Part shown: piece by piece, positions 17,787 to 43,966 of the stretch
How positions within the stretch are numbered: position 1 is the first letter of the stretch
Layout of the letters: each line of letters starts with the position of its first letter
Source: an uncultured Flavobacteriaceae bacterium
GTDB taxonomy: Bacteria; Bacteroidota; Bacteroidia; Flavobacteriales; Flavobacteriaceae
NCBI GenBank assembly: GCA_947501845.1
Contig: CANMXP010000004.1
Coordinates: 124,001-188,000 of the forward strand
Direction: 5' to 3'
Length of the DNA: 64,000 bases
Program-made: the position numbers and the translations under genes
Notes under the pieces: model-generated
Databases searched by the model: none
What the model was told of the DNA's origin: nothing
The model's input: only the letters and a program-made list of their open reading frames with translations

Positions 17787-18458
17787 CTATTTATTTAGCA
17801 TACTTAAAATTTTTGAAACCCCAACTGTAGCAGGTTCAGCGATAACCGTTAAGTTTTCTTTACTGGCAATACTTGGTTTAGGGTCTATAAAATAGGTTGG
17901 TGTATTTTGGGGCACATAATGCATCAAACCAGCAGCTGGGTAGACTTGCATAGATGTACCAATAATGGTTAAAATGTCGGCAGTTTCGCAAATAGAAATT
18001 GCTTTATCAATCATAGGAACATCTTCGCCAAACCAAACAATATGAGGTCGTAATTGATAGCCTTTTTGGCATGTATCTCCTAAAACCAAATCAGTTTTCC
18101 ACGTTTGTATATCACGTTCGTCCCCAGTACTTCTCACTTTTAAAAGTTCACCATGCAAATGAATTACATTGCTACTTCCAGCACGTTCATGTAAATCATC
18201 AACATTTTGCGTAATAATAGTAACTTTAAAATGGTCTTCAAGTTTGGCTAAATCGTAATGGGCTGTATTAGGCGTTACCTCAAAAAGCTGTTTACGACGT
18301 TGGTTATAAAAATCCAAAACCAGTGCAGGGTTTGCTTTAAAGCCTTCGGGTGTTGCTACTTCCATAACATCATGGCCTTCCCATAAACCATCAGCATCTC
18401 TAAAAGTTTTAATGCCACTTTCGGCACTCATACCAGCAGTAAAATTATTTGTTGGCAA
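17787..18458 (-). pseudogene. cobB: Sir2-family NAD-dependent protein deacylase, main part, cut off from its first 11 codons by the 25.5-kb element
   Basis: The body of a sirtuin: SAESGIKTFRDADGLWEGHD, TQNVDDLHERAGSSNVIHLH with the catalytic His, QLRPHIVWFGE and GTSMQVYPAAGL. Native sequence runs from 17787 to the GCT at 18437. Beyond it the reading frame enters element DNA (TTG 18458, encoding LPTNNFT) and the NAD-binding GAG motif is reduced to T-A-G. The missing start, MKKHLVVLTGA, is found at 43966-43934 on the same strand. Joining the two gives an in-frame 226-residue protein with LTGAGMSAESG. A TTG-initiated product lacking the first beta strand is possible but should be inactive or impaired. 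Confidence 0.93.
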
Positions 18459-18459
18459 C
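18434..18459. other. Left attachment-site junction of the element (attL)
   Basis: Host sirtuin sequence ends and element sequence begins around the core CAGCA (18434-18438). The same five bases form the right junction at 43933-43937. From the central GC outward, the left element arm agrees with the right arm at 14 of 22 positions, including GTAAA, ATTTGT and AAC blocks at equal distances. Confidence 0.9.
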
Positions 18460-19054
18460 TAATTTGTTATTCCAAATATTTTTTTAAACCTTTCAATTTT
18501 ATTGGGCTTTGGTGGGGCTTAAACAAAGGTTTAATTGACTTGCTCAATTCCAATAAGCCTGATTTGATAGGTTTAGCTTATGGGCGGTTTAGTTTCTATT
18601 CTTAATGTATTTAAAAATAACTTAATACTTTTCGCCCACTTAGTCAATTCTATCATATTTTGGTAAACCTATTTAATGGAGGTAGGATATAAAAGATAAA
18701 GCTCATCACGTGCCATTTCGTCCTAATTCTTTTAATGCAACAATCTTGGAATGATTAGATGGCACAAATTCCTCTATTAAAAAATTCAAATAGGTGGTAG
18801 TTCTTGGTGCTGTGGCACTTCTGGATTACACCTATGTTTTATCCCATTTTTCACTAAATAACCGAAGGTTAGCCTCTAAGTGCCTTTTAACAAGTGGTTT
18901 GTGTTACAAAATTTTCTAAAAAGAAAGGTGTCACGCAATATATATATAATAATATAAAGAAAATCTAAGCCCTAATCCCTACTGATTTAGTAGGGAAAAT
19001 TTGTCTTTTTGTGACATAATTGCCAGAAAAATCAAATTGCAATAATTTTACGTC
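18460..19054. other. Left-end non-coding stretch of the element
   Basis: No full gene is visible in these 595 bp. On the minus strand, a stop-free stretch ending at TGA 18708-18706 reads SKIVALKELGRNGT at its end and is broken upstream near 18815 by a stop, so it may be the decayed end of a gene. A perfect hairpin, TCCCTACT-GATTT-AGTAGGGA (18976-18996), followed by an A/T-rich tract, lies 58 bp before the next gene and could be an operator or attenuator. Confidence 0.5.
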
Positions 19055-19819
19055 ATGAAAAAAAAGAAAGTCAAAAGGAAAAAGGATAGCAAAATAACAC
19101 TCACAAAACGCAATAGTTTAGAAGAATTAAATGAATTATTTACCATAGGCACACTTTTACCTGGTACAGAAATAACTTATTTGGAAGATGGTAAGAGTAA
19201 AATATATCACAAACCTTTTGGTAATGTTCTTACCACAAATAAACATCTTGTTTTAAAGAGTCAAGATTTTAATGGAGAACCTTTTTTAAGAGGTAAATTT
19301 GAGTATATGCAAGTATTACTACCAGAATACAGAATGAAATCTATGTATAAGTTCTATCCTGTTTTAAAGGGTGTTCTAAACGGTTATCGAGTTTGTACCA
19401 AAGCCGATAAAAATTGTTTGACTGCATTAGCTAATCAAATATATCATTATTATGCTCCGATTATACATGTATTTAGACAGACGCAAGAACGAATAAATTC
19501 ATTCCGTAAGATTGAAGATATAATAAACGATGTAATTGCTAATCCCTATGCATTTAACGGACGAAAAAAGTATGAAACAATTTTTTGGAATCCAGATTAC
19601 AATTTAACATCACAGGAAAAAACAGATTTATTTAACAAATACAGAGGTAAAGAATTACTAAATGAGAATCTAAAAAGATTAATAGAAATTTATACCAAAG
19701 GAATGACACAAAAAGAGTTACAAGAGAAAAGCAAAATGAGTCTTAGTACAATTAAAAGGCGTTGGAAATCAATTATAGAATTTTATAACCAAGAGCAAGA
19801 ATTTCTGATAGCTGCTTAA
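19055..19819 (+). CDS. Unrecognised element protein with C-terminal helix-turn-helix
   Basis: A 254-residue, strongly basic protein; the N-terminus MKKKKVKRKKDSK is lysine-rich. No family is recognised for the body (PGTEITYLEDGKSKIYHKPF, RMKSMYKFYPVLKGVLNGYR). Near the end, GMTQKELQEKSKMSLSTIKR is a helix-turn-helix that suits DNA binding. As the first gene inside the left end, it could be a regulator or an excision/replication factor of the element; that is a guess from position. It converges with the resolvase gene. Confidence 0.65.
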   Translation: MKKKKVKRKKDSKITLTKRNSLEELNELFTIGTLLPGTEITYLEDGKSKIYHKPFGNVLTTNKHLVLKSQDFNGEPFLRGKFEYMQVLLPEYRMKSMYKFYPVLKGVLNGYRVCTKADKNCLTALANQIYHYYAPIIHVFRQTQERINSFRKIEDIINDVIANPYAFNGRKKYETIFWNPDYNLTSQEKTDLFNKYRGKELLNENLKRLIEIYTKGMTQKELQEKSKMSLSTIKRRWKSIIEFYNQEQEFLIAA

Positions 19820-19837
19820 CAAACTTTCATTTTTGAT

Positions 19838-20434
19838 TTATTGATTTTTCAAAATGGACTTTACTTTTTGTACAGTTCCTAAAGAGACGTCACATAGCTT
19901 CGCTGTATTTCTCAAAGACTGCCCATTTTTAAGCTGTTTAACAACGTTTTTGTACTTGTACAGCACTTGTTTGTCAGATTCGGCAGATCCTTTTATTCTA
20001 CCTTTATAAACACCTTTAGCTTTAGCAATAGCGATACCTTCTCTTTGCCTTTCCAAGAGAGATTCTCTTTCCATTTCTGCAATGTTAGCCATAACAGAAA
20101 TAATTAATTTAAATGCATGGTTAGGTTTATTGTCAACTAAACTTTCTATACCTAAATTATCTACTTTGAGTGTAATTTTATTTTTATTTAATATTTCTAA
20201 AGTAGAAAGTATATCATATAAGTTCCTACCGAGCCTATCAATACTATGTACAGAAATGTAATCAATATTGCCTTTTTCAATTTCTTTTAATATTTCTTTT
20301 CCTTTAGGTCTTTCTCTAAACGGTATAGCTCCACTAATAACATCAATGTATAAAACTTCGTTTGGATGCTTTTTCACAAGTTGCCTTTCCGTTTTTTGAT
20401 TTCCAGTACTTACTCTTATGTATCTTGTTTTCAT
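19838..20434 (-). CDS. Small serine recombinase (resolvase/invertase family)
   Basis: A 198-residue resolvase. The N-terminal catalytic motif is YIRVSTGNQKTERQL (Ser9 predicted as nucleophile), followed by the family segment YISVHSIDRLGRNLYDIL. The arm LIISVMANIAEMERESLLER leads to the REGIAIAKAKGVYKGR linker and a C-terminal HTH (NGQSLRNTAKLCDVSLGTVQ). It is too short for the large-serine class, so it is unlikely to be the integrase. It may resolve element dimers or invert DNA; the repeats at 21.35-21.67 kb are candidate targets. Confidence 0.93.
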   Translation of the reverse strand: MKTRYIRVSTGNQKTERQLVKKHPNEVLYIDVISGAIPFRERPKGKEILKEIEKGNIDYISVHSIDRLGRNLYDILSTLEILNKNKITLKVDNLGIESLVDNKPNHAFKLIISVMANIAEMERESLLERQREGIAIAKAKGVYKGRIKGSAESDKQVLYKYKNVVKQLKNGQSLRNTAKLCDVSLGTVQKVKSILKNQ

Positions 20435-20478
20435 TTTCTATAACTTGAATAAAGCCCCCATTTAGAGGGCTTAATATT

Positions 20479-21000
20479 TTACATTAATCTAAAATAATGG
20501 TTATTATGATTAGCATAGTCCATCATAATATCCGAAGCTGTTCTTTCCCAATCTATATGAATATAAGAAGGTAATTCAGGTTTCAAATCCCCCGTTTCTT
20601 CTAAAAGAAGCTCTGTGAATTGAACATCGCTTAAAAACTCTCCACAATAAGATTCATTAACATTATCTAAAATTTCTTGAATATTATTTGCGCCTCCAAA
20701 GCAATGAATATAAGCTTCAACTATTTCTTCTTCATAACAACAATCTTCAATTTCTTCAATGATTTCATATATTTCTTTAGAAATATGGCACTCACTAATT
20801 AACCCTAAACTTTCTATTATTTCAGAACATTCGTAATCTTGAATCATAAACTCTGGGTCTTCCTCGTCCTTATGATATTCTTTAATTGCTTTTTGCAGTT
20901 CCAGATAATCAGAATAATCTTTTAATTTGAACCATTTTCCGTAAATGCTTCCATTGTTGTACTTGGCATAAGTACCGACATAAATTTGTACATTTGTCAT
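20479..21000 (-). CDS. ardA: ArdA-family antirestriction protein
   Basis: A 173-residue, very acidic protein. The N-terminus VQIYVGTYAKYNNGSIYGKW followed by KLKDY is the ArdA signature, and the Glu/Asp-rich body (EIIEEIEDCCYEEEIVEAY) suits the DNA-mimic fold that blocks type I restriction enzymes. Length matches the family. In known elements ArdA protects incoming DNA on arrival in a new host, which agrees with horizontal movement of this island. It lies 44 bp upstream of the resolvase on the same strand, and the two could share a transcript. Confidence 0.88.
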   Translation of the reverse strand: MTNVQIYVGTYAKYNNGSIYGKWFKLKDYSDYLELQKAIKEYHKDEEDPEFMIQDYECSEIIESLGLISECHISKEIYEIIEEIEDCCYEEEIVEAYIHCFGGANNIQEILDNVNESYCGEFLSDVQFTELLLEETGDLKPELPSYIHIDWERTASDIMMDYANHNNHYFRLM

Positions 21001-21997: not shown

Positions 21998-22390
21998 CTA
22001 ACTTGGTATTTCTTCTAACAAATTTATTTGACTAATACTCGGAATCATACACATATCTGCCCTTTTAATTTTCCCTTTTTGAGATTCAATTAGTAGTGTT
22101 ACTATTTTAGTTTGTTTTCTTTTGCTAAGGTCTATTTGATATATCACAAGACAATAGTTATTACGATATAGACCTAATCTTGCTATTATTTTTATATCGG
22201 AATTTAAAAATTGCTTTAATTTTTGTTCAAAATACTCCAAATAGTCCTTTTTACTCTCAATCTCACTAAAAACCCATTGAGAAGTATATTGAAAGCCATC
22301 AGCTAAATAATCACTAATATAATTTGAATTTAAGTGGTTAAACGCTCTTGCGTAATTTGAAACTAATTCCTTATGAGATTTTAACTTCAT
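21998..22390 (-). CDS. NTF2-like fold small protein
   Basis: A 130-residue protein whose order of elements suits an NTF2/SnoaL-like fold: helices (ELVSNYARAFNHLNSNYISD), the YLADGFQYTSQWVFSEIESK segment, a YLEYFEQKLKQFL helix, then long strands (IKIIARLGLYRNNYCLVIYQ). No catalytic role can be assigned. The start overlaps the preceding 59-residue gene by 20 bp, so the pair is probably coupled. Confidence 0.65.
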   Translation of the reverse strand: MKLKSHKELVSNYARAFNHLNSNYISDYLADGFQYTSQWVFSEIESKKDYLEYFEQKLKQFLNSDIKIIARLGLYRNNYCLVIYQIDLSKRKQTKIVTLLIESQKGKIKRADMCMIPSISQINLLEEIPS

Positions 22391-22550
22391 TGAAAAGCCT
22401 TTTGTATTTTTTGTATTGATAAAACAAGTATGTAGTTATTAAAGGATGAATAATTACAAATATCCAAACATTAATTGCTTCGTATGAAATACCCATAATT
22501 TTAGCTGTTTCTCTTAATATATCAACACAAAACTGAAATATTGAGTCCAT
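22371..22550 (-). CDS. 59-residue membrane protein (short gene)
   Basis: ATG 22550 to TAA 22371 encodes MDSIFQFCVDILRETAKIMG, then a hydrophobic helix (INVWIFVIIHPLITTYLFYQ) and a basic tail (YKKYKRLFNEVK). Small proteins with an INVWIFVIIHP-type core recur in Bacteroidota mobile elements as far as I recall, though their role is unknown. It lies 3 bp downstream of the next gene and overlaps the NTF2-like gene, so the three form a tight minus-strand group. Confidence 0.65.
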   Translation of the reverse strand: MDSIFQFCVDILRETAKIMGISYEAINVWIFVIIHPLITTYLFYQYKKYKRLFNEVKIS

Positions 22551-22553
22551 TTT

Positions 22554-22976
22554 CTATAGGGAGTTTAATTTATTAGCGTGATTAAGAACTTTTTTAGCAG
22601 CTTCATTTAGAGAATATTTTATTTGCTCATCACTCAATAGTGAGTTAGGTGCAGAAGTTTTATAAACCGTTTTAGATATTTCTTTAGTTTGATTTTCTAT
22701 CAATACTTCAATATATCTTTTAAGATAGTCTGGGTTTTCCCTGATTTCTTCTGATGCTTTTTCTAACCCTAATGTTAATGTTCTATATAACCTATCTTCT
22801 GTAAGTTTTTGCAAATCGTTCATTGCCTTTTGCTGTTTATTCATAACATTTTCAATACTATCAATTGTTACCCTGTTTATTTGAGACTTTGGCTTAGTTT
22901 TGTTAACTGCCTTATCGGAAATATTAAATATTATTATAAACACAACTACCGCTATTCCAATATATACAAATGCCAT
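22554..22976 (-). CDS. Membrane-anchored helical protein of unknown function
   Basis: A 140-residue protein with an N-terminal membrane helix (VYIGIAVVVFIIIFNIS) and then a long charged helical part (NVMNKQQKAMNDLQKLTEDR and ENPDYLKRYIEVLIENQTKE). The layout suggests a single-pass protein with a cytosolic coiled-coil-like domain. No family recognised. It heads the group with the 59-residue and NTF2-like proteins. Confidence 0.65.
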   Translation of the reverse strand: MAFVYIGIAVVVFIIIFNISDKAVNKTKPKSQINRVTIDSIENVMNKQQKAMNDLQKLTEDRLYRTLTLGLEKASEEIRENPDYLKRYIEVLIENQTKEISKTVYKTSAPNSLLSDEQIKYSLNEAAKKVLNHANKLNSL

Positions 22977-23008: not shown

Positions 23009-23773
23009 TTACTCAAAGAAAATTGTTTCAACTACACCTCTTATATCTTCTTCGTATATAACGAAGTATTGGTTACTGTAATCAGAATTATATAATCTAC
23101 CTATTACGGTATAATCGATACCACTCAAATTGTCTAAATCTTTAACAGTCAATACCGCTTTTGTTGCTTCTTTGTCTATCCTAATTGCCTTTTGGATATA
23201 TGAGTTTGGATCTGATTCATCTGTTTCTGTTGTACCATCTTCAAAGTGTATTTCCAATTTAACTATAGCTTGGGCAGGTGCATTTCCCACACTAATAACA
23301 AACCAGGCATCCTCGTTGTTCAGGGGATAAATAGTGTTTTCATCAAATAAACTACAATTTACCCAATCATCTTGCTGTTTAGTATAAACAGCACTTTGGT
23401 TTATCCTTTTGATTTCTGTATCTGAAACCTTTTCAAACTCATATTCTGTTCTTGTTGCCGAAGTATTATCCGAATTTGACCTAATAATAGCAAAAGAGTA
23501 ATAACTTTCGGTTATTTCTTCTTCATAACTGATATTAAAGCTTCCTGCTTCATCTCCGATACAAGATTTATCACATAATTCAATAAAACAGAAGTCATCA
23601 TTAGTAAATTCATATCCTGCATCTATCCAAGTACTTGTTAACCATACACCTCTTATCCACTCTGGTGGATTTAATGAAGAATCATTGTTTGAATCTGTAT
23701 TATTATCGGACTTACTTGAACAGCTAAAAATTATAGAAATTACTATAACAAATAATATTAGATTTTTTTGCAT
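23009..23773 (-). CDS. Hypothetical lipoprotein
   Basis: A 254-residue predicted lipoprotein (signal peptide ends ISIIFSC, Cys18) with a low-complexity Ser/Asn/Asp spacer (SSKSDNNTDSNNDSS). A beta-rich body has four cysteines in FCFIELCDKSCIGDEAG and VNCSLFDE, suggesting a small disulphide-stabilised fold. No family recognised. It may belong with the small membrane genes downstream on the same strand (32-bp gap). Why an integrative element carries it is not evident. Confidence 0.65.
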   Translation of the reverse strand: MQKNLILFVIVISIIFSCSSKSDNNTDSNNDSSLNPPEWIRGVWLTSTWIDAGYEFTNDDFCFIELCDKSCIGDEAGSFNISYEEEITESYYSFAIIRSNSDNTSATRTEYEFEKVSDTEIKRINQSAVYTKQQDDWVNCSLFDENTIYPLNNEDAWFVISVGNAPAQAIVKLEIHFEDGTTETDESDPNSYIQKAIRIDKEATKAVLTVKDLDNLSGIDYTVIGRLYNSDYSNQYFVIYEEDIRGVVETIFFE

Positions 23774-23927
23774 TGGTAGGTTTTGAGGTTTTTATATTGT
23801 TCAAGCAACAATTAATCTTGGAGATAATCATAAGCTTAAATTCAAATATATAAATAATATTTCATACAGGGCATATACGCCCTCTGGTTAATGAAGCCAA
23901 AAATATAATTTGTCATTCATTCAACAA

Positions 23928-24161
23928 ATGATGTCATTAACCAAAAAAGAAAAAGAATACTTAAAAAAGCTTGGTAAGCGTATCGTCTATATAAGAGATG
24001 AGAAAGGAATTAGCCAAAAAGAACTATCAGACATTCTTGATATGGATGATGGGTCTCTAAGGCGCATTGAATCAGGTAGAACGAATCCTACCACAACCAC
24101 CTTGTTAAAATTATCTGAAGCTCTTGAAGTAGAAATGAAAGAATTATTTAAATTCCATTAA
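23928..24161 (+). CDS. XRE-family helix-turn-helix regulator
   Basis: A 77-residue DNA-binding protein that is nearly all HTH: LGKRIVYIRDEKGISQKELS, then DILDMDDGSLRRIESGRTNP, and the ALEVEMKELFKF helix. ATG 23928 is chosen over an upstream in-frame TTG at 23910. The 3' end overlaps the convergent gene at 24144 by 18 bp. It is a candidate repressor for the nearby unknown pair or the defence gene, as XRE proteins often control such cargo; there is no direct evidence here. Confidence 0.85.
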   Translation: MMSLTKKEKEYLKKLGKRIVYIRDEKGISQKELSDILDMDDGSLRRIESGRTNPTTTTLLKLSEALEVEMKELFKFH

Positions 24162-24581
24162 TTGTTCAGGAATATCGGGTTCATGTAAATATATTTTATT
24201 GCCAAGTTGCACATAATCGTCTTTTGAATTTAAATAAAAATAGAATCGCATGATATCATACTTTGCATTATAAGTCTTCTGTGTCTTTTTCAAAAGAGCC
24301 TTTGATACAGCAAAACTATTTACAACTTCATTTCTTGAAATACATTCGAGGATTTTCATGTTAGGTAGATTTAACTCAACTTTTTCTTCATTGATTAATA
24401 AATTATCAACAACTAAAGAACCAACCTTTAATATAACTTTATCTATATCAATACTCACTTCATAGCCTCTCGACCAATGGTATTTCATATTTTCATTACT
24501 TTCTTTTCCTGCATTATATGCATCAGCATATTTCTGGTCAAAGTCAGAATTAAACTGCTTAAATGTTACTATCAATTTCAT
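24144..24581 (-). CDS. Unknown protein, second gene of a coupled pair
   Basis: A 145-residue protein with no recognised family. It has beta-rich segments (YEVSIDIDKVILKVGSLVVD) and a short helical middle (NSFAVSKALLKKTQKTYNAK). Its ATG shares a base with the TAA of the upstream gene (TAATG), so it is translationally coupled to it. Stable pairing suggests a partner or immunity-like subunit for the 447-residue protein; this is inference. Confidence 0.6.
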   Translation of the reverse strand: MKLIVTFKQFNSDFDQKYADAYNAGKESNENMKYHWSRGYEVSIDIDKVILKVGSLVVDNLLINEEKVELNLPNMKILECISRNEVVNSFAVSKALLKKTQKTYNAKYDIMRFYFYLNSKDDYVQLGNKIYLHEPDIPEQLMEFK

Positions 24582-25924
24582 TATTTTTGGATTGAATTAG
24601 CAAGTTTTATTAATTCTTCTTTATCTACTTTTAATCCAAACAATCTTTCTATATCTAAAGCTTGTCTTTCTAATGTTGGATTATCTAAAAATAATTCCCA
24701 TAAATTGGTAACTCCCTTGAATCTATTTAATGCTTTTCTATCTTTATACAAGTCATAGAACTTGGATAAAATAGAGGTTGAAAAGTTAGTCACATTCAAA
24801 TCCTTTGTGAAATCCTCAATTTTATTTCCGTCCAAAATATTCTCTACAGCTTTATTTAAATTTGATTTATCTTTTAAATCCCAAAAATGAAATGCCAATC
24901 TATTTGAAGTTGTTTTATACTTTTTGCTAAATGCTTTCCAAAAAGATTGGAACTCATCATTTATTTTCATTTGTTCCCTTACACTATCACATGCATCTAA
25001 CCTTTTTTCTATATCAACAAATGACTTTCTTAATTTTGTAAAATCATTTCTTAATTCAATTAATTTTTTAGGAATGTCCTCTTTAGTTTCACATTTTGAA
25101 AGCAAAATTGCCACAAGTGGTGGAATTGGTATTTTTTTATATCCAACATATTGATTCAAACTACCCAACTTCTCATTATATGTTTTTGCAAGAATGTCAT
25201 ACGTCTTATTAGGAATGCCAAGTGATTTATTAACTTCAATATCTGATTTAAAACCTCTAAAAGGTAAAGCCGTTTGAAAGATAGAGTGAGACAACGTATC
25301 ATACATTCCATTCAAAAGCTTTGAAAAAGTGGTTTCAGTTTCAAATACCGCTAATCTTTTCTTTTGTCCACTAACCTCGGTAATACCATGCCACAAATAA
25401 GAATATTTTTCAGCCTGTCCTTTTAAGTATGGCTCTTTGAAGTATTTGGTATTTAGGTATTCTGAGTTTTGTTTTTGAAATTCAACAAGAATATTAGACT
25501 CCTCCTTTTTATCATCGGGGTTATTCATGTCTTTCACAAATTTTACCACTCCTTTGTCAATCCAAATTGGCCATCCTATTAACGTGACTCCCTTTGGGTT
25601 TGTCAGCACCAAGTTAGTTATAGGTCTTCCGTCTTTAAACACTTCCTTAGCAATACAAAAATGATGATCCCATTCTTGTTTAGAAACCAAAAACACTTCA
25701 TTCAGAACAAAGGCTTCAACAAAAGTATTTAAGTTAAATATAAACTTATGGTCAGCCTTTCCATATCCTCCGATTATGAAGTCAAGTTCACTTAACAATC
25801 CAAAATTATAGTAAGCCGTATTGTAAGGAAGTTTTATTTCTTTTGGATTTTTGTAGCTTTTTAAATTCTGAAGTGGAAGCCCCATAATAATTATTTTCTT
25901 TCTAAAAATATCAAATATTAGCAA
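24581..25924 (-). CDS. Unknown 434-447-residue protein, first gene of a coupled pair next to the NACHT gene
   Basis: No family recognised. Two starts are possible: 25924, or the later ATG at 25885, which begins MGLPLQNLKSYKNPKEIKLP and looks more natural. The N-terminal half is mixed alpha/beta (LVLTNPKGVTLIGWPIWIDK). The C-terminal half is helical and charged (LRNDFTKLRKSFVDIEKRLD, AFHFWDLKDKSNLNKAVENI). No Walker, nuclease or membrane motif stands out. It diverges from the nuclease-NACHT gene across 91 bp, so the two units may be regulated together. Confidence 0.6.
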   Translation of the reverse strand: MLIFDIFRKKIIIMGLPLQNLKSYKNPKEIKLPYNTAYYNFGLLSELDFIIGGYGKADHKFIFNLNTFVEAFVLNEVFLVSKQEWDHHFCIAKEVFKDGRPITNLVLTNPKGVTLIGWPIWIDKGVVKFVKDMNNPDDKKEESNILVEFQKQNSEYLNTKYFKEPYLKGQAEKYSYLWHGITEVSGQKKRLAVFETETTFSKLLNGMYDTLSHSIFQTALPFRGFKSDIEVNKSLGIPNKTYDILAKTYNEKLGSLNQYVGYKKIPIPPLVAILLSKCETKEDIPKKLIELRNDFTKLRKSFVDIEKRLDACDSVREQMKINDEFQSFWKAFSKKYKTTSNRLAFHFWDLKDKSNLNKAVENILDGNKIEDFTKDLNVTNFSTSILSKFYDLYKDRKALNRFKGVTNLWELFLDNPTLERQALDIERLFGLKVDKEELIKLANSIQK

Positions 25925-30850: not shown

Positions 30851-30883
30851 TTTTAAAAATTTAATTGTTATTATTTATATTAA

Positions 30884-32653: not shown

Positions 32654-32659
32654 TTCTAT

Positions 32660-33367
32660 TTATTTTTTCGTTTTAATAATTTTTCTAACTGATGGCGAAC
32701 TTGTAAACCATAATAAAAAGCCACTCAAAACAGTAACTAACCCTAAAAGAGAAAAAGCTCTTAAAACAATGGTGTTAAAGTTGTCTCTACCTTCATAATC
32801 CATTGTATGGGTCATCCATAAAAAATCGAACCAACGCCAACTTCGATGTCTAACTGTTTGAAATTTTCCATCTTTAATGGAGATATAAGCTTTGATGGAC
32901 TCATCTGCTTTATATGATATAACATGAGCTGGCAACAATCGTTCTCTATATTCGTGATGCTTACCAACTTCATTGATTTGTTCAATAGTTTCTACTTCCA
33001 AATCACTTTTCATGTGGTTTTTAGCTATATATAAAGCTTCATCCTTTGTGATGTGATTTTTTGGGTTTCCATCGATGGCATTATATAGTTGATTGTTATT
33101 TATCCAATAAAATGGTGTATTACCAATGTCTCGCAACTCAATAGTATTTAAACCACCTGAAACATTTAGTTGTGCTGGACTAATAAGGTTATTGAATGAT
33201 TTCGGTTGATAATCAGGGTTTTTAAATTGGTCTCCATGAATATCATCAATATCAGTCCAACTAAAATATAAGCCACTCGCTGTCCATAGTAAAAACTGAA
33301 TACCTAAAAACAAACCTAAATAGCGATGCGTTTTTCTAATTTTTAGTGCTGTGTGTCTATTTACCAT
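32660..33367 (-). CDS. PepSY domain membrane protein
   Basis: A 235-residue inner-membrane protein. It has an N-terminal helix (YLGLFLGIQFLLWTASGLYF), a periplasmic PepSY-like part (TKDEALYIAKNHMKSDLEVE and HVISYKADESIKAYISIKDG), and a C-terminal helix (VLRAFSLLGLVTVLSGFLLW). A HRSWRWFDFLWMTHTMDYEG segment carries several His and Trp residues and resembles PepSY_TM reductases. It sits inside the copper cluster, 6 bp from both neighbours, so a metal-linked role such as copper reduction is likely but unproven. Confidence 0.85.
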   Translation of the reverse strand: MVNRHTALKIRKTHRYLGLFLGIQFLLWTASGLYFSWTDIDDIHGDQFKNPDYQPKSFNNLISPAQLNVSGGLNTIELRDIGNTPFYWINNNQLYNAIDGNPKNHITKDEALYIAKNHMKSDLEVETIEQINEVGKHHEYRERLLPAHVISYKADESIKAYISIKDGKFQTVRHRSWRWFDFLWMTHTMDYEGRDNFNTIVLRAFSLLGLVTVLSGFLLWFTSSPSVRKIIKTKK

Positions 33368-33373
33368 ATTCGT

Positions 33374-35866
33374 TTATATTTTAATATTCCTTAATCTTAA
33401 TGCGTTTGCAATAACCGAAACTGAACTAAAACTCATAGCCAAAGCTGCAATCATTGGAGATAGTAGCAACCCAAATACTGGATATAAAACACCTGCTGCA
33501 ACTGGTACACCCAATACATTATATACAAAAGCAAAAAATAGATTCTGCTTTATATTTTTAACAACACCATGACTTAACTTTTTAGCCTTTACAATGCCCT
33601 GTAAATCTCCTTTTACTAATGTTATTGCTGCACTTTCAATAGCAACATCTGTTCCTGTACCCATAGCAATACCAACATCCGATTGGGCTAAAGCTGGGGC
33701 ATCGTTAATTCCATCTCCTGCCATGGCTACTACTTTCCCTTGTGATTGCAGTAATTCTATTTCTTTGAGTTTATCTTCTGGAAGACATTCAGCTTTATAG
33801 TGTTTTAGATGCAACTGGTCTGCTACTGCTTTTGCGGTATTTTTGTTATCTCCAGTCAGCATTATTACGTCAACACCATTGTTTTGAAGTGCTGTAATAG
33901 CCTTTTGACTTGTTGTTTTAATTGCATCGAAAATAGTAACATAGCCTACAGCCTTATTATCTACTGTGATGTATGAAACTGTTTTACCTTGTTCTTGTTC
34001 AGCTAAAACTTTGTTTGCCAAACTTTCAGGGATGCCAACGGTATATTGCTCTAATAACTTTGCATTACCTAAAGCAACCTTTTTATTTCCAACAGTACCA
34101 ACAACTCCCTTTCCTGCTATTGCTTGAAAATCATTTACTTTAGTAATAGACACCTTTTTTGATTTACCGTATTTTACGATGGCTTCTGCTAAAGGGTGTT
34201 CGCTATATTGGTTTAAAGATGTTATATATTCTACTAAAACTGTTTCCTCTACATCATCGGTTGCTATAATTTTTTCAACAGAAGGTTTTCCTTCGGTTAT
34301 AGTACCTGTTTTATCTACAATTAAGGTATCAACCTTATTCATTTTTTCTAAGGCTTCTGCATTCTTAATCAAAACACCAGATTGTGCGCCTCTTCCAACA
34401 CCAACCATAACCGACATTGGTGTGGCTAAACCTAACGCACAAGGACAGGCAATAATTAATACAGCAATGGCATTGACAAAAGCAAAAACATAAGCTGGTT
34501 CTGGACCAAATACAGCCCAAACAATAAATGTTATTACAGATACAACTAATACAATTGGGACAAAATATTTAGAGATTCTATCTGCTAACTTTTGAATTGG
34601 TGCTTTTGAACGACTTGCATTATTAACCATGTGAATAATTTGAGACAGTAAGGTTTCTGCACCAACCTTTTCAGCTTTCATTACAAATGATTTTGTACCA
34701 TTGATTGTACCAGAACTTACTTTGTCATCTACTTTTTTATCTACAGGAATAGGCTCTCCCGTAATCATAGATTCATCTATACTACTATGCCCTTCTATAA
34801 TACTACCATCAACTGGAATTTTTTCTCCTGGCTTTACACGTAATAAATTGCCTTGTTCAATTTTATCAATCGCAATTAACTTATCCTCCCCATCACTTAC
34901 TAAGGTCGCAGTTGATGGCACTAACTTTAATAATTCCTTTATCGCTCCACTTGTTTGACTATGCGCTTTAGCTTCTAATAATTGTCCTAATAATACTAAT
35001 GTGAGAATTACAGTTGTAGCTTCAAAATATACAAATACGTTACCATCAGTAGTTTTAAAATCTTGCGGAAACACATCTGGAAACAACATAGCAAACACAC
35101 TAAATATCCATGCAATTCCAGACCCAATTCCTATAAGTGTAAACATGTTAAGATTCAACGTTTTTATGGAAGTCCAAGCACGTTCAAAAAACATCCAAGT
35201 CGCATAGAACACTACTGGAATTGATAAAATAAATTGAATCCAGTTCCATTGCTTTTGTTCTAAAACAGCATATAACGGATTGTTATTTAGCATTTCGGAC
35301 ATGGCTATTAAAAATATGGGGACGGTAAAAGCTACAGCAACCCAAAACTTTTTTAATAGCTTCTTATAGGTCTTATCTTCTTCTGAAGTATCAGCTTCCG
35401 ATGATACTAAATCCATCCCACAGATAGGGCAAGAACCAGGTTCATCTTTAATAATTTCAGAATGCATAGGACATGTAAATTGAACACCTGAAGGGACTAT
35501 ACTTCTTTCTTCTACCAAGTCCATTCCACACACAGGACAATTCCCTGCTTTATCATAGGTTTTATCTCCTTCACAATGCATAGGACAGTAAAAAGTACCT
35601 GTGCCTTTCCCTTTTGGAGCTTCTTCTTTCTTTAACTCCTTATGATGATGTTCTCCTATATTATGTATGCTATATCTGTCACTATCTTTCTTTAAGACTT
35701 CCTGAAAAGTTTCTAAAGAAATATGCGATTCCATTTCAATAGTCGCTTCTGATTTTTCTAAATCGACTAATGCCTTTGAAACACCTTCCACTTTTGAAAG
35801 CGTTTCCTTTACATGACTTCGACAACCGTTACAGGTCATTCCATGTATGTGATATGTATGTTTCAT
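33374..35866 (-). CDS. copA: Copper-translocating P-type ATPase
   Basis: An 830-residue P1B-type ATPase that exports Cu(I)/Ag(I) from the cytoplasm. An N-terminal HMA domain has [11 protein letters not shown] (Cys12, Cys15). Two heavy-metal-binding ribbons follow (CPMHCEG...CPVCGMDL and CPMHSEI...CPICGMDL, within about residues 90-160). Then come the membrane helices, the [20 protein letters not shown] actuator, the [13 protein letters not shown] ion-binding helix, the DKTGT phosphorylation site, SEHPLAEAI, and [20 protein letters not shown]. Two ribbon domains in tandem is more than most CopA proteins carry. It starts one base after the channel gene ends. Confidence 0.97.
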
Positions 35867-35867
35867 T

Positions 35868-37103
35868 TTACTTAGTTAAATAATTAACGATTGTTGATTG
35901 CACATAATAGTTCTTCACAGATTCTATTTGATTAATTTGAAACCTTAATTGTAACTCTTGGATGTCTAAAACATCATTAAAATCAATCGTTCCAGTTTCA
36001 TAACTTTTTATCAAAATGTCTTCTGCATCTTTTGCCTGTTTTAAGTTTTTAGCTTGCGTATCATAACTAATCCGTGAAGCTATTCTGTTATTAATTGCTT
36101 TAGACAAAGCAGTTTCCAATACATTTTCTCTTTCTTGTTTCTGAAATGTAATTTCTTGTTGTTTTAAAGCGTTCTGTCTTGTTTGCGATTTGTTTTTCTT
36201 ATTGAAAATCGGAATTGAAAGTGACACCATAGGCATAACAATATCTTTTCCGTTATCACTAAAACTCATGTTTGGTCGTTCTGAGACTGAAACATAATCT
36301 AAACCAAAACCAACCATAGGTTGACTATCTTTTTGATTCAATAATTCGGATTGTTCTACAGATTGAAACAACTTATCATACTTAGTCAATTCAGGATGTA
36401 GGGCTAAATTCCCTGAGTCATTTAGAGTATCATTTAGCGGTATAGTCAATTCATTTATTAAATCAATTTCAACAGACTTTTCTCTATTTAAAAGCTTATT
36501 GAATGTTGTTTGTTCTGCTAAATACAACTGCGCCAATACTTGCTTAGATTGCTCTAATTCGTTTTGTCTCATCTGTAATCTTAATACATCAACTGCCGAA
36601 GCTTTACCTACTTCAAGAGACGTTAAAGCCATTGTTTCGTAGGTTTTAAGTAATGCAATATTGTCATCTAAAACCCTTTGTTTTGTTTTAAGGGCATAGA
36701 GGTTATAGTAAGACTGAGATACAGAAGCTACTAACTTTCGTTTGGCAATCGTAATATCTTCATATTTAGCATCCGCCAATGAGTTAACATAATTTTCTCT
36801 GGCAGTAATAGAGCCAAACCAAGGCATCATTTGTTTTGCAGAAATTTTAAAACGTTGCGCTCCAGTTCTTGTTTCAGGTTCACTTACAAAATAGCCTACT
36901 CCAAATTCGGTGTTTGGAATGGTATTAACTTCATTTACTTTTTCTGAAACAATACTATATTGTAATTCAAACTTCTGAATTTCTGGATTGTTCGCTAAGG
37001 CTTCATTGATTAATATTTCCAACTGTTGTGCATTACCTTTTAGAAAAAAGAATAAAGACAAAAGAGCAAAGATTATTGAAGCATTCTTTTTTAAGTATTT
37101 CAT
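35868..37103 (-). CDS. cusC: TolC/CusC-type outer-membrane efflux protein
   Basis: A 411-residue channel protein with a signal peptide ending FLKGNAQ. Long helical hairpins follow, for example [20 protein letters not shown] and [20 protein letters not shown], in the pseudo-repeat order of TolC-family proteins. ATGA overlap (4 bp) with the pump gene shows coupling. It completes the tripartite CusCBA-type exporter with the adaptor and pump. Confidence 0.9.
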
Positions 37104-40100
37104 TTTTCTACTTTTTTAAGTTGTAATTCTGCTTTCCAACTGTATAAAACTGGAACAACAAATAGTGTGATTAAGGCAATGAGCATACCTCCAAAACTTG
37201 GAATTGCCATAGGAATCATAATATCACTACCACGCCCCGTTGATGTTAGAACTGGTAACAGTGCTAATATGGTAGTTGCAGTTGTCATTAAACAAGGTCT
37301 GATACGCTTTTCTCCTGCCTCTATTACTGAAGCTCTAACATCATTCTTGTTCGTTGGCTTATTCCTATCAAATATTTGAGTAAGGTAAGTTGCCATAACA
37401 ACGCCATCATCAGTTGCTATACCAAACAGGGCTATAAAACCAACCCAAACAGCTACACTTAAATTAATTGGATGCATCTGGAATAAGTCTCTTAGGTTTT
37501 CGCCAAAGAAATTGAAGTTTAAAAACCAGTTTTGACCATATAACCAAATCATGATAAAACCACCTGCAAAAGCAACGGCTATGCCTGTAAATACCATAAA
37601 AGAGGTTGCTACTGAACGAAACTGAAAATATAGTATTAAGAAGATAATGAACAATGCCAATGGCACTACAACCGATAAGGTTTTTTCTGCTCGTAATTGA
37701 TTTTCATAAGTTCCTGTGAATTTATAATTAATCCCTTTAGGAACTACTAATTCTCCTGAATCTATTTTTTGTTGAATTAAGGTTTGCGCATTTTCAACAA
37801 CATTAACTTCTGCATACCCATCTAATTTATCGAACAACACATAACCCACTAAAAAAGTATCTTCACTCTTAATGACCTGTGCGCCTTGTTCGTAACGAAT
37901 AGTTGCTAATTCACTCAATGGAACTGGACTTCCTTTTTCTACTGGGATATAAATGTTTTCTAAATCTGAAGGATTGCCCCTTAACTCTCTTGGATAACGA
38001 ACTCTTACTCCGTATCGCTCTCGACCCTCAACAGTTTGAGTTAATACCATACCGCCTACAGCAACTTTTAAAACATTTTGGACATCATCTATGGATATGC
38101 CATAACGTGCCAATTTTTCCCTATCTATATCAATTAACAAATAAGGCTTTCCGACTATTCTGTCAGCAAATACAGCTTCAACTTTAACACCTTCAACTTG
38201 TTTTAAAATATCCTCTAACTGAACACCAAAGGCTTCAATTTGCTTTAAATCTTGTCCTTTAACCTTAATTCCCATTGGAGCACGCATTCCTGTTTGCAAC
38301 ATGACCAAACGTGTTTCTATGGGCTGTAATTTAGGGGCTGATGTAACACCTGGCAACTTAGTTACACGTACAATTTCTTTCCAAATGTCATTAGGGTTGT
38401 TTATTACCGGCCTCCAGTTTCTATAAAATTCTCCATCATTATCTTCAATTAATTGTTCTCTAACTATATCAGAATTAAGAACAATGTTTTTATCAGAGTT
38501 ATTAGGGTTTGCTACAAAACTTCCATCCTTCAATTCAAACAAACCATCTTCGTTAACCCTATAGCGTTGACGCTCTCCATGTAGATTTAACATATATTCA
38601 GGTTTATATTGAATCATATTTTCATACATAGATAATGGAGCTGGGTCTAAAGCAGATTCTGTCCGTCCAGCTTTCCCAACTACGGTTTTAATCTCTGGAA
38701 TGCTTGCCACAGCCATATCTAATTGCTGAAGCACTCGTTTGTTTTCTTCTAAACCTGAATGTGGCATGGAAGTAGGCATGAGTAAAAAAGACCCTTCGTT
38801 TAACGATGGCATAAATTCTTTACCTGTATTTTTCATTATGAAAAATCCACCAATCACGATAAGCGTTGGAATAGATAGAAATAAGATTTTATTAGCTAAT
38901 GCCCATTGTAAAATGCGAGTATAGAATCTTCTAAATAATGTAAACACACCTAATAAGCCAAAGCATATCATACCAACAAAAATGAGATTCCAAAATATGC
39001 TTTTGTCAACACCTAAAGGTCTCCAATATTCAGCAAGAAGAAAGACGATTGTTAATGCTGAGATTACAATATTTATAAGGTTCGCTCTTTTTTCTAAAAG
39101 TTGTCCATTAAATTTTAATAAGGCTGTAATGCCAAATGCTATCAATATAAGACCGATCCAATATCCAGATATTATTGTTGCAATACCAATTATGATTAAA
39201 AGCCCATTTACTACATAACTAAAGGTCTTTTTTATATTCTTCTTTCTAAATAGAAATGCCGCAAATGGTGGTATCAGGAATAAGGCAACTATTATAGAAG
39301 CCGTTAAAGCAAAGGTTTTTGTAAATGCCAATGGTCTAAACAATTTTCCTTCTGCACCTATCATTGTAAACACAGGAATAAAACTTATAATAGTGGTCAT
39401 TACTGCGGTTACAATAGCCCCTGAAACTTCAGCAGTTGCATTATAAACCACAGTATTTATTGGTAGCTTATTTTTGTTTTCATCTAAGTGTCTTATTATG
39501 TTTTCTGAAAGAATAACACCAACATCTACCATCGTACCAATAGCAATAGCAATACCAGATAAGGCTACAATGTTTGCATCAACTCCAAAGAGTTTCATAG
39601 CTATAAACACCATTAAAACAGCAACAGGTAGTAAACCAGAAATAAGAACTGAAGCTCGTAAATTGAACACCATAATAATGATGACCAAAATTGTTATCAA
39701 TATCTCTAAAGTTAAAGCTTCATTAAGTGTCCCTAACGTTTCTTGAATCAATTCTGTTCGGTCATAAAAAGGTACAATAGTAAGTTGAGACGTTCTTCCA
39801 TCACTCAATACTTTTGATGGTAACCCAGAACTTAACTCACTTATTTTTTCTTTTACATTTGTGATGACTTCCATTGGATTTGCTCCATATCGAGCTACAA
39901 CTGCTGCTCCAACAACTTCAGCACCTTCCTTGTCCAAAACACCTCGTCTTGTTGCTGCTCCTAAAGACACATTTCCTATGTCTTTAATTCTAATTGCTGT
40001 AAAGTCTTCAGAAATTATAACAGCATTTTCTATATCTGCAATGGATTTTATATAGCCTAACCCTCGAACCAAATATTCAGCCTGATTAATCTCTAAGGTT

Positions 40101-40813
40101 TGTGCGCCTATATCTTTATTGCTTTCTTTTACTGCCTTTACAACATGATGCAAACCAATATTGTATTGTCGCATTAACTCAGGATTAACATCGACTTGGT
40201 ATTCTTGAACATACCCACCAATCGAAGCAACTTCTGAAACACCACTTGCTGATGACAAAGCATACTTTACATAGTAATCTTGAATACTCCGTAATTCATG
40301 TAAATCCCAACCACCAGTTACATTTCCGTTTTCATCACGTCCTTCAAGGGTGTACCAAAATATTTGACCTAAGCCAGTAGCATCTGGACCCAAAGCTGGA
40401 TTTACACCTTCTGGAAGTAATCCACTTGGTAGTGAGTTCAATTTTTCAAGAATCCGACTTCTACTCCAGTAAAATTCTATATCTTCTTCAAAAATGATAT
40501 AGATACTGGAAAAGCCAAACATTGATGAACTACGAATGGTTTTCACTCCTGGTATTCCTAATAATGAGGTGGTCAATGGGTAGGTAATTTGGTCTTCAAT
40601 ATCTTGTGGAGAACGACCATCCCATTTAGTAAAAACGATTTGTTGATTTTCCCCAATATCAGGGATGGCATCAACGGCTACAGGGTTACTTGGTAAAAAG
40701 CCAACATCCCAATTAAAAGGAGCATTTACAGTTCCCCAACCTATAAAAAGAACGAGCAATAAAACTGCTACAAGTTTATTTTCTATTAAAAATTTTATGC
40801 TTTTATTTAGCAT
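37100..40813 (-). CDS. cusA: CusA/CzcA heavy-metal RND efflux pump
   Basis: A 1237-residue inner-membrane proton-driven pump. RND features are the N-terminal LVAVLLLVLFIGWG helix, FTKWDGRSPQDIEDQITYPL and MFGFSSIYIIFEED in the porter domain, the mid-membrane motif IAIGTMVDVGVILSEN, and FGIATDDGVVMATYLTQIF in the second half. The first half of the membrane region has extra hydrophobic segments (FSYVVNGLLIIIGIATIISG), so the protein is about 180-190 residues longer than E. coli CusA. Such longer CusA forms occur in Bacteroidota. Copper or silver is favoured by its neighbours. Confidence 0.95.
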   Translation of the reverse strand: MLNKSIKFLIENKLVAVLLLVLFIGWGTVNAPFNWDVGFLPSNPVAVDAIPDIGENQQIVFTKWDGRSPQDIEDQITYPLTTSLLGIPGVKTIRSSSMFGFSSIYIIFEEDIEFYWSRSRILEKLNSLPSGLLPEGVNPALGPDATGLGQIFWYTLEGRDENGNVTGGWDLHELRSIQDYYVKYALSSASGVSEVASIGGYVQEYQVDVNPELMRQYNIGLHHVVKAVKESNKDIGAQTLEINQAEYLVRGLGYIKSIADIENAVIISEDFTAIRIKDIGNVSLGAATRRGVLDKEGAEVVGAAVVARYGANPMEVITNVKEKISELSSGLPSKVLSDGRTSQLTIVPFYDRTELIQETLGTLNEALTLEILITILVIIIMVFNLRASVLISGLLPVAVLMVFIAMKLFGVDANIVALSGIAIAIGTMVDVGVILSENIIRHLDENKNKLPINTVVYNATAEVSGAIVTAVMTTIISFIPVFTMIGAEGKLFRPLAFTKTFALTASIIVALFLIPPFAAFLFRKKNIKKTFSYVVNGLLIIIGIATIISGYWIGLILIAFGITALLKFNGQLLEKRANLINIVISALTIVFLLAEYWRPLGVDKSIFWNLIFVGMICFGLLGVFTLFRRFYTRILQWALANKILFLSIPTLIVIGGFFIMKNTGKEFMPSLNEGSFLLMPTSMPHSGLEENKRVLQQLDMAVASIPEIKTVVGKAGRTESALDPAPLSMYENMIQYKPEYMLNLHGERQRYRVNEDGLFELKDGSFVANPNNSDKNIVLNSDIVREQLIEDNDGEFYRNWRPVINNPNDIWKEIVRVTKLPGVTSAPKLQPIETRLVMLQTGMRAPMGIKVKGQDLKQIEAFGVQLEDILKQVEGVKVEAVFADRIVGKPYLLIDIDREKLARYGISIDDVQNVLKVAVGGMVLTQTVEGRERYGVRVRYPRELRGNPSDLENIYIPVEKGSPVPLSELATIRYEQGAQVIKSEDTFLVGYVLFDKLDGYAEVNVVENAQTLIQQKIDSGELVVPKGINYKFTGTYENQLRAEKTLSVVVPLALFIIFLILYFQFRSVATSFMVFTGIAVAFAGGFIMIWLYGQNWFLNFNFFGENLRDLFQMHPINLSVAVWVGFIALFGIATDDGVVMATYLTQIFDRNKPTNKNDVRASVIEAGEKRIRPCLMTTATTILALLPVLTSTGRGSDIMIPMAIPSFGGMLIALITLFVVPVLYSWKAELQLKKVEK

Positions 40814-40921
40814 TGTGCATGATTATTAAACAGTTAGACATTGATGTTAGAAAAACATCGAATACAACAAATTATCCTTATAGTGCATGGACTATAGGAT
40901 AAACAGTCTATTGTTCAAAAA

Positions 40922-41335
40922 TCAAATTAAATAGGTCTCGTCAAGCTTGAAGATTTGCCTTATGACGAGTGGCGGTTTGTATTCTTCGTAAGAAGATACA
41001 CTTTCATTTAAACCTTCAAAAAGGTTAATATAAGTAGATATAAATGAAGCTATAAATACTTGTTGGTCGAAAGTTAATTTATCAAAAGATATTTTTAACT
41101 CATCCTGACCTTCAATAGTAATTTGTTCATCTGTACAACAATTCTTTTTTGTAACAGCACAATCAGTACTTGAAGGGTTTTGCATTTCCATACCACAACC
41201 TTTTGCTTTATGGAATACAGCAGTCTCAACCAAAGTATCTCCGCAATAGTGCATATCTATTGTAAATGACATTGTAGAAAATAATACTACAAAAGCCATT
41301 AAAAACGACATTATTTTATGGAATACTTGTTTCAT
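40922..41335 (-). CDS. HYC_CC_PP family protein (copper-cluster small exported protein)
   Basis: A 137-residue exported protein with a signal peptide MKQVFHKIMSFLMAFVVLFS and the three signatures that name the family: MHYCGD, KKNCCTDEQ, and the YKPPL near the C-terminus. Such proteins occur beside heavy-metal efflux genes in Bacteroidota; the Cys and Met residues (KGCGMEM) suggest metal binding. It is the first gene of the minus-strand copper cluster, 108 bp before the pump gene. Confidence 0.88.
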   Translation of the reverse strand: MKQVFHKIMSFLMAFVVLFSTMSFTIDMHYCGDTLVETAVFHKAKGCGMEMQNPSSTDCAVTKKNCCTDEQITIEGQDELKISFDKLTFDQQVFIASFISTYINLFEGLNESVSSYEEYKPPLVIRQIFKLDETYLI

Positions 41336-41343
41336 ATCTGATA

Positions 41344-42139: not shown

Positions 42140-43876
42140 TTATAGTTTATACTTTTGCAGTCTTGACTGTACATCTTCAATAGTTACCTTTCTATGTTTT
42201 TTTAATTTATCTGTATTTGCCCATTGGGTTTGTCTTTTTTTAGCATCAACAACGTGCAATGTTAAACTATCCATTAAATACAATTCATCCTCAATAGGTA
42301 ATTTGTAACTAATTGTAATTTCAAACAGTTTACTTTCGGGCTTCCATTTTACCAGTATGTTCTTTATAAACTTTCTAAATGTTTTTTGTCTTTCCAAAAA
42401 AGGTAGTTTTAAAGCGAGATACCCCTTAAAAACAGCGTCGGTGTAATTCTTCATAAAACCAGGGTGTGTATCTTCAAAAGGGTAATCTATATATGAATGA
42501 GCGATATTTGTTAGTTCTTCAATTTCTCTTAAAATATTTGTATCTCCTTTCAGCGATTTCAAGCTTTCCTCGATATTAGCTTTCTTTATTTTAATCTCAT
42601 TTGCCTTACTATCTAACCTTTTAACTTGTCTTAAATATTGTACTTTATTATAAGTGCGGTCAGCAAGATAATTTTCTACACTTAGCTTGTTATTTTCTAT
42701 GTTTTTTAAGTCAGCTTCGAGACTTTTAATTCTTGTTTGGAGTTCTTCTCGTTTATCTGAATTATTATCAGAAAATGATTCCTTAACTGTACTGTAGAGA
42801 TTTCCATATATTAATTTAGTTATTATTGAATCAAGTACATTAACTGGAATGTATTTAGAATTACACTTTTTTTCCTTGTACCTTTTTCCTGCACAACCAT
42901 AATAGTTTTCAAGTTTATTTGAACGCCCATTAAGTGATTGACCGCAACCGCATTGGAGTAATGGAGTAAGTAAATATTTATGGTCTGTATTTTTGCCTCT
43001 TAGAGAGCCTTTGTTTCTGTTTATATAACTATTATTAGCTTTTTCCCATTTTACTGGGTCAACTATTAAAGGAACATCGAAAAATTCATCCCTCCAACGT
43101 CTTTTCCCTTTGTAAATTGGATTTCTAATTATTTGTAAGATTGTGCCAGTTGTCCAAGTTGAATCAGACTTTTTATATACTCTTGTTTCATTCCTACCTT
43201 TATGAATTATTTTATTAGTGCCGCCTATTTTATTGTATCTTGTTTGCACATTATTATCAATTAACCAATTTCTTATCTCTGAAGATGTTTTACCTTGTAT
43301 GAAGTCATCAAATATCTTTTTAACTATTTTAGATTCACTTTCGTCAGGCTTTAGATAACTATTTTCATCTTTAGTATATCCATAAGGTAAAACAGCACCG
43401 TTTACCTTTCCTTCTCTTGCTTTTGACCTTAATGTATCTTTAATTTTAATAGAAGTTAAGTCAACAAAAAATTCATCTGTTGCAGATAAGATATTATGTA
43501 AAAGTTTAGAGTGAGGGTCATTCCAATCAAACCTACCTGATTTAAAATATAATTCAATATCTTTTCTTTTGATAATAGCTAAAAACTTATGCTTAGTTTC
43601 ATCATTTCTATATAATCTACTCGTATCATAAGCAAAGACAGCTTTGATTTTAGAATCTTTAGCACTTATTTTTTGTAGCATGTCCATCATAACAGGTCTA
43701 TCCTTTAAGTCAAGCTTCCCTGAACTGGTGTCTTCAATAAATAATACGGGTTCTAAATTAAGTTCTATAGCCTTTAAATTACCCTGATTCTTTTGTTCGT
43801 CAATTGAAGTAGAATCCCTATCTTTATTATCCTGAGATTTACGACAGTATATCGCTAATTGCTCCATAATTTCCAC
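42140..43876 (-). CDS. Large serine recombinase, the element's integrase
   Basis: A 578-residue site-specific recombinase. The N-terminal catalytic domain has LAIYCRKSQDN (Ser14 predicted as nucleophile) and the AVFAYDTSRLYRNDETKHKF segment. The recombinase domain follows (LPYGYTKDENSYLKPDESES; SGEIRN-like SSEIRNWLIDN). A zinc ribbon (LLQCGCGQSL ... YYGCAGKRYKEKKCNS, about residues 275-310) precedes a long coiled coil (LQTRIKSLEADLKNIENNKL). Size and domain order are those of phage-type large serine integrases. The start is 57 bp from the right junction, the usual place beside attP. No directionality factor is recognised. Confidence 0.96.
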   Translation of the reverse strand: MEIMEQLAIYCRKSQDNKDRDSTSIDEQKNQGNLKAIELNLEPVLFIEDTSSGKLDLKDRPVMMDMLQKISAKDSKIKAVFAYDTSRLYRNDETKHKFLAIIKRKDIELYFKSGRFDWNDPHSKLLHNILSATDEFFVDLTSIKIKDTLRSKAREGKVNGAVLPYGYTKDENSYLKPDESESKIVKKIFDDFIQGKTSSEIRNWLIDNNVQTRYNKIGGTNKIIHKGRNETRVYKKSDSTWTTGTILQIIRNPIYKGKRRWRDEFFDVPLIVDPVKWEKANNSYINRNKGSLRGKNTDHKYLLTPLLQCGCGQSLNGRSNKLENYYGCAGKRYKEKKCNSKYIPVNVLDSIITKLIYGNLYSTVKESFSDNNSDKREELQTRIKSLEADLKNIENNKLSVENYLADRTYNKVQYLRQVKRLDSKANEIKIKKANIEESLKSLKGDTNILREIEELTNIAHSYIDYPFEDTHPGFMKNYTDAVFKGYLALKLPFLERQKTFRKFIKNILVKWKPESKLFEITISYKLPIEDELYLMDSLTLHVVDAKKRQTQWANTDKLKKHRKVTIEDVQSRLQKYKL

Positions 43877-43912
43877 ACTAAAATATGGTTAAAGATAGGG
43901 ATTAAAATTTTT

Positions 43913-43937
43913 GTTTTACACAAATTTGTTTACAGCA
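43913..43937. other. Right attachment-site junction of the element (attR)
   Basis: Core CAGCA at 43933-43937 is shared with the left junction at 18434-18438. To its left is the element arm (minus strand TGTAAACAAATTTGTG), which mirrors the left arm; to its right is host sirtuin sequence encoding KKHLVVLTG. Confidence 0.9.
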
Positions 43938-43966
43938 CCTGTAAGTACGACTAAATGTTTTTTCAT
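43916..43966 (-). pseudogene. cobB: Severed 5' end of the sirtuin gene
   Basis: ATG 43966 reads MKKHLVVLTGA, the expected first beta strand and start of the GAG motif of a Sir2 protein, and then runs into element DNA (VNKFV, stop at 43916-43918). The native codons are 43966-43934. The rest of the gene is 25.5 kb away at 17787-18437 in the same orientation. The native promoter must lie in the 82 bp shared with the divergent trmH gene. Confidence 0.92.

Follow-up and report, generated by a model that had tools for sequence, protein, structure and literature searches.

A sirtuin codon that looks like a fixed docking site for a family of mobile elements with a large serine recombinase

Serine recombinase elements that split a gene include the sigK (skin) and the nitrogen-fixation (fdxN, XisF) elements, which are excised developmentally. 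Islands of the staphylococcal cassette chromosome (SCC) combine a serine recombinase and variable cargo with one conserved chromosomal target gene, rlmH. In the phage-borne A118/comK system, a large serine recombinase (LSR) element resides in a protein-coding gene, comK, which is rebuilt through an excision whose regulation has been demonstrated by others (PMC3556126, PMC8987985); its attP is pseudo-palindromic with a 2-bp crossover (PMC3783163, PMC3556126), and its GG core is asymmetric, so that orientation is fixed. According to PMC3556126, orientation in the serine integrase studied there depends solely on the asymmetric core dinucleotide; this control is lost with engineered symmetric cores, which allow the A118 integrase to act in both orientations. 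Here we analyze a stretch of 64,000 nucleotides from an uncultured Flavobacteriaceae bacterium (assembly GCA_947501845.1, contig CANMXP010000004.1, positions 124,001 to 188,000 of the forward strand), called the window throughout, in which a 25.5-kb element with an LSR gene splits the gene for a sirtuin, one of a family of protein-deacylating enzymes.

The window element shares traits with each of these systems. Like the skin and fdxN/XisF elements it is a serine recombinase element that splits a gene, but its LSR scores 59.3 bits against the XisF model (cut-off 375). As with SCC, a serine recombinase island with variable cargo occupies one conserved chromosomal gene; the target is, however, a sirtuin gene instead of rlmH, and the LSR is not an orthologue of CcrA or CcrB (62.5 and 46.2 bits against cut-offs of 700 and 900). 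With A118/comK it has in common the LSR, the protein-coding target interrupted in frame such that excision would restore it, the 2-bp crossover and the pseudo-palindromic attP, whereas it differs in having a GC core, relatives in both orientations, no recognised phage structural gene and an excision that is predicted only. The LSR clusters of PMC10083194 likewise hold related enzymes that repeatedly insert into and disrupt one gene family; the terms sirtuin, Sir2 and palindrom are absent from its main text. What is new here is a family of LSR-borne islands whose members have a symmetric core and lie, some one way and some the other, at one and the same sirtuin codon. In a literature search that covered mostly titles and abstracts, and subscription journals sparsely, no paper was found that links integration by a large serine recombinase or a prophage with a sirtuin, Sir2 or NAD-dependent deacetylase target, which is weak evidence of absence; equally weak in this respect is the finding that a natural symmetric core is not described in the accessible parts of PMC3783163, PMC3556126, PMC4111918, PMC5311408, PMC10083194 and PMC8987985.

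The split sirtuin gene and its uninterrupted counterpart

The first-pass annotation of the window had described a sirtuin body without its first strand, with the missing start MKKHLVVLTGA at 43966-43934 in the same orientation, and a fusion of the two that keeps the reading frame; the sequence bears out all of this (Table 1). Joined at the core, the two parts would encode a 226-residue SIR2 protein of the CobB/SIRT5-like deacylase type, with what we take to be the NAD-binding GAG motif and the catalytic His, and its top match among solved structures is 1s5p (E 1.6e-56), presumably E. coli CobB. The sirtuin body is the only PF02146 match in the 5.37-Mb genome. Between its crossover points the element measures 25,499 bp.

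The annotation had proposed that relatives be inspected, and had named a differently worded sirtuin in relatives without the element as a refutation. In the closest relative, G307, the sirtuin gene is 96% identical and uninterrupted, stands next to trmH and reads MKKHLVVLTGAGMSAES; with MKKHLVVLTGAGMSAESG it is exactly the joined gene that had been predicted. Its neighbors are those of the window as well: the sirtuin start is flanked by trmH and the gene beyond it, the opposite end by the cupin-like and a glycosyltransferase gene. Boundaries and empty site thus support a single integrated element. Of the 12 genomes in the genus of the window, 10 have a sirtuin that can be aligned from residue 1; the alignment begins at residue 10-11 in the remaining two, the window genome (G000) and G304 (Flavivirga rizhaonensis RZ03), and these same two are the only ones with an LSR at E <= 1e-30. 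The genus of G200 (Pontimicrobium aquaticum CAU 1491) repeats this pattern, since all six genomes have a sirtuin, and both the late start and the LSR are confined to G200. Chance is excluded as an explanation because the intact 96% gene lies between the same neighbors in G307 and because two further LSR elements occupy the same codon elsewhere.

Late-starting sirtuins in the whole family (397 genomes) were judged among the matches listed. A further candidate in G170, matching from residue 15, was dropped because the gene ends at a contig end. Two sirtuin matches listed contain one in-frame stop each (G110:C31:96446-97123 and G048:C158:2903-3577), possibly independent losses or sequence errors.

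The LSR, whose gene as listed starts with GTG at 43876, 57 bases from position 43934 at the right junction, has its PF00239, PF07508 and PF13408 domains all above cut-off, as expected of an LSR integrase. It adjoins an attachment site, where a 2-bp crossover falls within a pseudo-palindromic attP, and is likely the integrase of the element. In the search for close relatives of this enzyme, a scan of genome contigs with two exact peptide patterns returned three loci; two of them are the sister elements, and the third holds a relative at 22%. Among 299 family genomes searched at 1e-30, 11 had a match, including the window's own, and the matches other than this one and G200 were 29-35% identical; in 395 genomes of the order (1e-60) the other matches were two distant ones. 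Phages yielded three related records (at most 28.9% identity), viral contigs one (23%), and plasmids none at 1e-20. A motif scan of the short flanks of nine distant family loci and two distant order loci found no sirtuin start motif near the LSR.

Crossover core, sister elements and orientation

Elements occupy the same sirtuin codon in three hosts: that of the window, one of 19,148 bp in G200 and one of 15,426 bp in G304, each with both junctions on a single contig. While the annotation was right in noting that the two window junctions share TGCTG, comparison with the sister elements narrows the exact core to GC, the only bases common to all six junctions. The shared stretch is AGCTG in G304 and only GC in the G200 pair; since the bases flanking GC differ between the two G200 junctions, the crossover there is confined to this dinucleotide, assuming no later mutation. 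In attB the GC, which is self-complementary, represents positions 1 and 2 of the Ala11 codon in the GAG motif, and it is present at this site in all 34 intact sirtuin rows examined (these represent 33 distinct loci, as L013 and L047 are the same gene; nine rows that start after residue 5, as cut genes or at a contig end, were excluded). The element ends around GC are pseudo-palindromic in all three elements, with 16, 16 and 18 matches out of 26 (shuffle p of 0.0017, 0.00225 and 0 of 20,000, respectively).

The three elements have a common backbone and different cargo. Read from the far end, the backbone invariably consists of a 245-254-aa helix-turn-helix (HTH)-like protein, a convergent small serine recombinase, a lipoprotein-like gene, a Cro-like regulator and the LSR. 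The cargo of the window element is a heavy-metal efflux cluster, ArdA and a NACHT-type protein; that of G200 is a UvrD-like helicase, an S24 peptidase with a Y-family polymerase, SRAP and a GmrSD-type protein; and that of G304 comprises two similar PAS/LuxR-like proteins (one of which was searched), an alpha/beta hydrolase and an AAA_31/CbiA ATPase protein. The LSR end borders on the start of the sirtuin in two of the hosts (window and G200) and on the body in G304; given the constant backbone order, the G304 element as a whole is reversed, not just its LSR. One reversed element out of three would fit the expectation for a symmetric crossover dinucleotide, and the G304 orientation may reflect either a reversed insertion or an inversion in place.

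G304 belongs to the genus of the window and G200 to another; the window host, a marine-type flavobacterium, can thus be placed in the Flavivirga group. The trmH proteins follow this relationship (88% identity to that of the window in G304, 70% in G200), whereas the LSR of the window is closer to that of G200 (83%) than to that of G304 (76%; G200 versus G304, 73.6%). These opposite orders show that the elements moved between hosts. A site-specific integrase of this kind would have its landing site inside a conserved protein motif, and the apparently natural symmetric core with insertions both ways raises the question of whether control of orientation is of any consequence to such elements.

Interpretation of the locus and fate of the sirtuin

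We consider it highly probable that the inserted 25.5 kb constitute a site-specific integrative element, and that its LSR catalyses recombination between attP and the attB of the sirtuin at the GC of the Ala codon of the GAG motif. The boundaries, the empty site, the presence at one codon of three elements that differ in cargo, the restriction to GC of the bases common to all junctions and the one reversed insertion are read from the sequences, while characterised serine integrases are the source for the assumptions that the LSR does the joining, that GC leaves the orientation open and that the reverse reaction rebuilds the sirtuin. The LSR would exchange strands at GC between the attP of the element and attB in the sirtuin gene in either direction, and insertion there would inactivate the sirtuin. 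Recombination of attL with attR, together with a putative directionality factor, would then free the element as a circle and rebuild the sirtuin whichever way round the element lies; in all three hosts excision is predicted to rejoin the reading frame. The insertion step draws on comparative evidence, and the excision step is one that we infer.

A wider proposal, on which we are evenly divided, is that these elements represent a natural serine-integrase family whose self-complementary core coincides with the two bases that are non-degenerate in the Ala codon of the GAG motif, that docks either way at one codon, can in principle flip and excise, and switches off the only PF02146 sirtuin while it is present. 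Rescue of the integrated body by an alternative start was considered and rejected: a TTG shortly after a stop (window and G200) gives Thr-Ala-Gly in place of Gly-Ala-Gly, and the body reading frame of G304 has its first start only at Met13. Because the alternative starts spoil the GAG motif or begin at Met13, the integrated gene is probably inactive, and the cell is expected to be without its sole PF02146 sirtuin for as long as the element is in place. The element would then be a natural, possibly reversible, sirtuin knock-out.

Several observations weigh against site-specific integration with a two-way core as just described. No directionality factor was identified. A search of the assembly for the rejoined attB (27 bases, allowing up to 3 mismatches) and for the circular attP (25 bases, allowing up to 2) found neither, although rare forms would be hidden in such a consensus. 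The likeness of the three target sites does not exceed that of other parts of the gene (36/42 in a three-way comparison, a value reached by 42/578 gene windows), so that an unusual likeness of the attB sites is unsupported. The attP arms alone are too alike to tell orientation, and the orientation argument draws on three known elements, one of them reversed. This last point, together with the longer shared stretches in two of the three element pairs, would be accommodated if the core extended beyond GC and a later inversion had turned the element in G304 around, the LSR itself not being bidirectional by nature. We think this quite unlikely, as the G200 pair shares GC only and the same GC precisely marks the two junctions in G304, where any inversion would have used it too. 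That a draft assembly (75 contigs) had joined unrelated pieces is ruled out for practical purposes by the agreement of three genomes, each with both junctions on one contig.

The state of the interrupted gene bears on whether the host profits from excision or is losing the enzyme. In a comparison of 210 codons from 20 genes (17 intact, 3 cut), the window, G304 and G200 sirtuins carry 0, 2 and 3 changes, respectively, at columns that are invariant in the 17 intact genes; by the same count the intact genes range from 0 to 10. The dN/dS (nonsynonymous to synonymous substitution) ratio of the window sirtuin versus G307 is 0.039, and that of other pairs ranges from 0.035 to 0.148, the highest being G304 versus G299. 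This lack of decay, and the restored frame predicted for all three hosts, would suit a regulated switch like sigK or comK, in which conditional excision restores the sirtuin to the host's gain. We regard such a switch as improbable: an excised form is absent from the assembly, the cargo is that of mobile islands, the G200 body is altered at three invariant columns, and an undecayed window gene would fit a recent insertion just as well as continued selection, between which the data do not decide. The G200 changes (G18D in the conserved SGI stretch, E36K and K219E), as well as the 72 of 397 family genomes in which no sirtuin was matched at 1e-20 (several of these genomes are incomplete or small), speak instead for a degenerating island, with integration one-way in practice, the sirtuin a pseudogene that is being lost, and the insertion tolerated because the enzyme is dispensable. 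Against this stand an LSR frame that is open and 73-84% conserved across the three elements, a window body without change at any invariant column, and an intact congener, G335, with more such changes (10) than any cut gene; we treat degeneration as a possible but rather unlikely account, and prefer site-specific integration at GC as set out above.

Remaining genes of the elements

The features of the window are compiled in Table 1.

Table 1. Features of the split sirtuin locus and of the inserted element (window positions).
Feature	Position	Strand	Remarks
Cupin-like gene, host flank	17339-17758	plus	Adjoins sirtuin end in G307
Sirtuin body without first strand	17787-18437	minus	PF02146, 9.7e-43
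GC core, left junction	18436-18437		Three-element comparison
Far attP arm, 26 bp scored	18438-18463		Paired with LSR-side arm
254-aa backbone protein, weak HTH-like C-terminus	19055-19819	plus	58-73% identical in the other two elements; weak sigma/HTH matches
Small serine recombinase (resolvase/invertase type), backbone	19838-20434	minus	Pfam Resolvase, 2.6e-25; in all three elements
ArdA antirestriction protein	20479-21000	minus	Pfam, 2.8e-23
Two small proteins common to the G200 element	21998-22976	minus	53% and 79% identity
254-aa lipoprotein-like backbone protein	23009-23773	minus	Lipoprotein by eye; 81% (G200), 54% (G304)
Cro-like HTH regulator	23910-24161	plus	Pfam HTH_3, 7.7e-15; 32-35% relatives in the other two elements
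Two proteins (145 and 447 aa) adjoining the NACHT-type gene	24144-25924	minus	No Pfam, NCBIfam or PADLOC match
1415-aa NACHT-type protein, cargo	26016-30263	plus	Pfam NACHT, 7.6e-6; 26.3 bits against cut-off 26.7
Heavy-metal efflux cargo (HMA, CusB-like, PepSY_TM, P-type ATPase, OEP, CusA-like RND)	30455-41335	minus	Pfam; 40922-41335 without match
LSR, 578 aa	42140-43876	minus	Pfam Resolvase, Recombinase, Zn_ribbon_recom; relatives at same site 76% and 83%
LSR-side attP arm, 26 bp scored	43909-43934		Pseudo-palindromic with far arm, 16/26 matches, shuffle p 0.0017
N-terminal sirtuin fragment MKKHLVVLTGA	43934-43966	minus	Host side of right junction, then element sequence
GC core, right junction	43935-43936		Three-element comparison
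trmH-type gene, host flank	44049-44705	plus	Adjoins sirtuin start in relatives

No capsid, terminase or other phage structural or packaging gene was recognised (Pfam on 18 element proteins, PHROGs on 8), and the element does not qualify as a prophage on this count. Nor were relaxase, conjugation or secretion genes recognised among the 18 window proteins searched with Pfam and the 10 searched with NCBIfam, several of which gave no match at all; on these searches the element does not classify as integrative conjugative or mobilizable.

The HTH-like backbone protein has no confident fold (predicted structure with a mean predicted local distance difference test score, pLDDT, of 46.7; no fold search was made) and no viral relative was found for it; beyond the window and G200, the 397 family genomes contain only two weak relatives. 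One of these two lies in an apparent tailed prophage of G215 (judged by eye; L064:3817-19882) that also carries a 31% LSR.

Near the interrupted sirtuin of G304 lies a second, degenerate fragment of a sirtuin C-terminus (L043:2712-2853), left over from duplication or recombination. The 1415-aa NACHT-type protein of the window, which has no PADLOC match, resembles, by eye, a nuclease at its start and has a long tail that looks repetitive; it is possibly an undescribed defence protein. The GmrSD-type protein of the G200 element (L046:6403-8157) matches the PADLOC model HEC-05 at 8.5e-231 and represents defence-type cargo.

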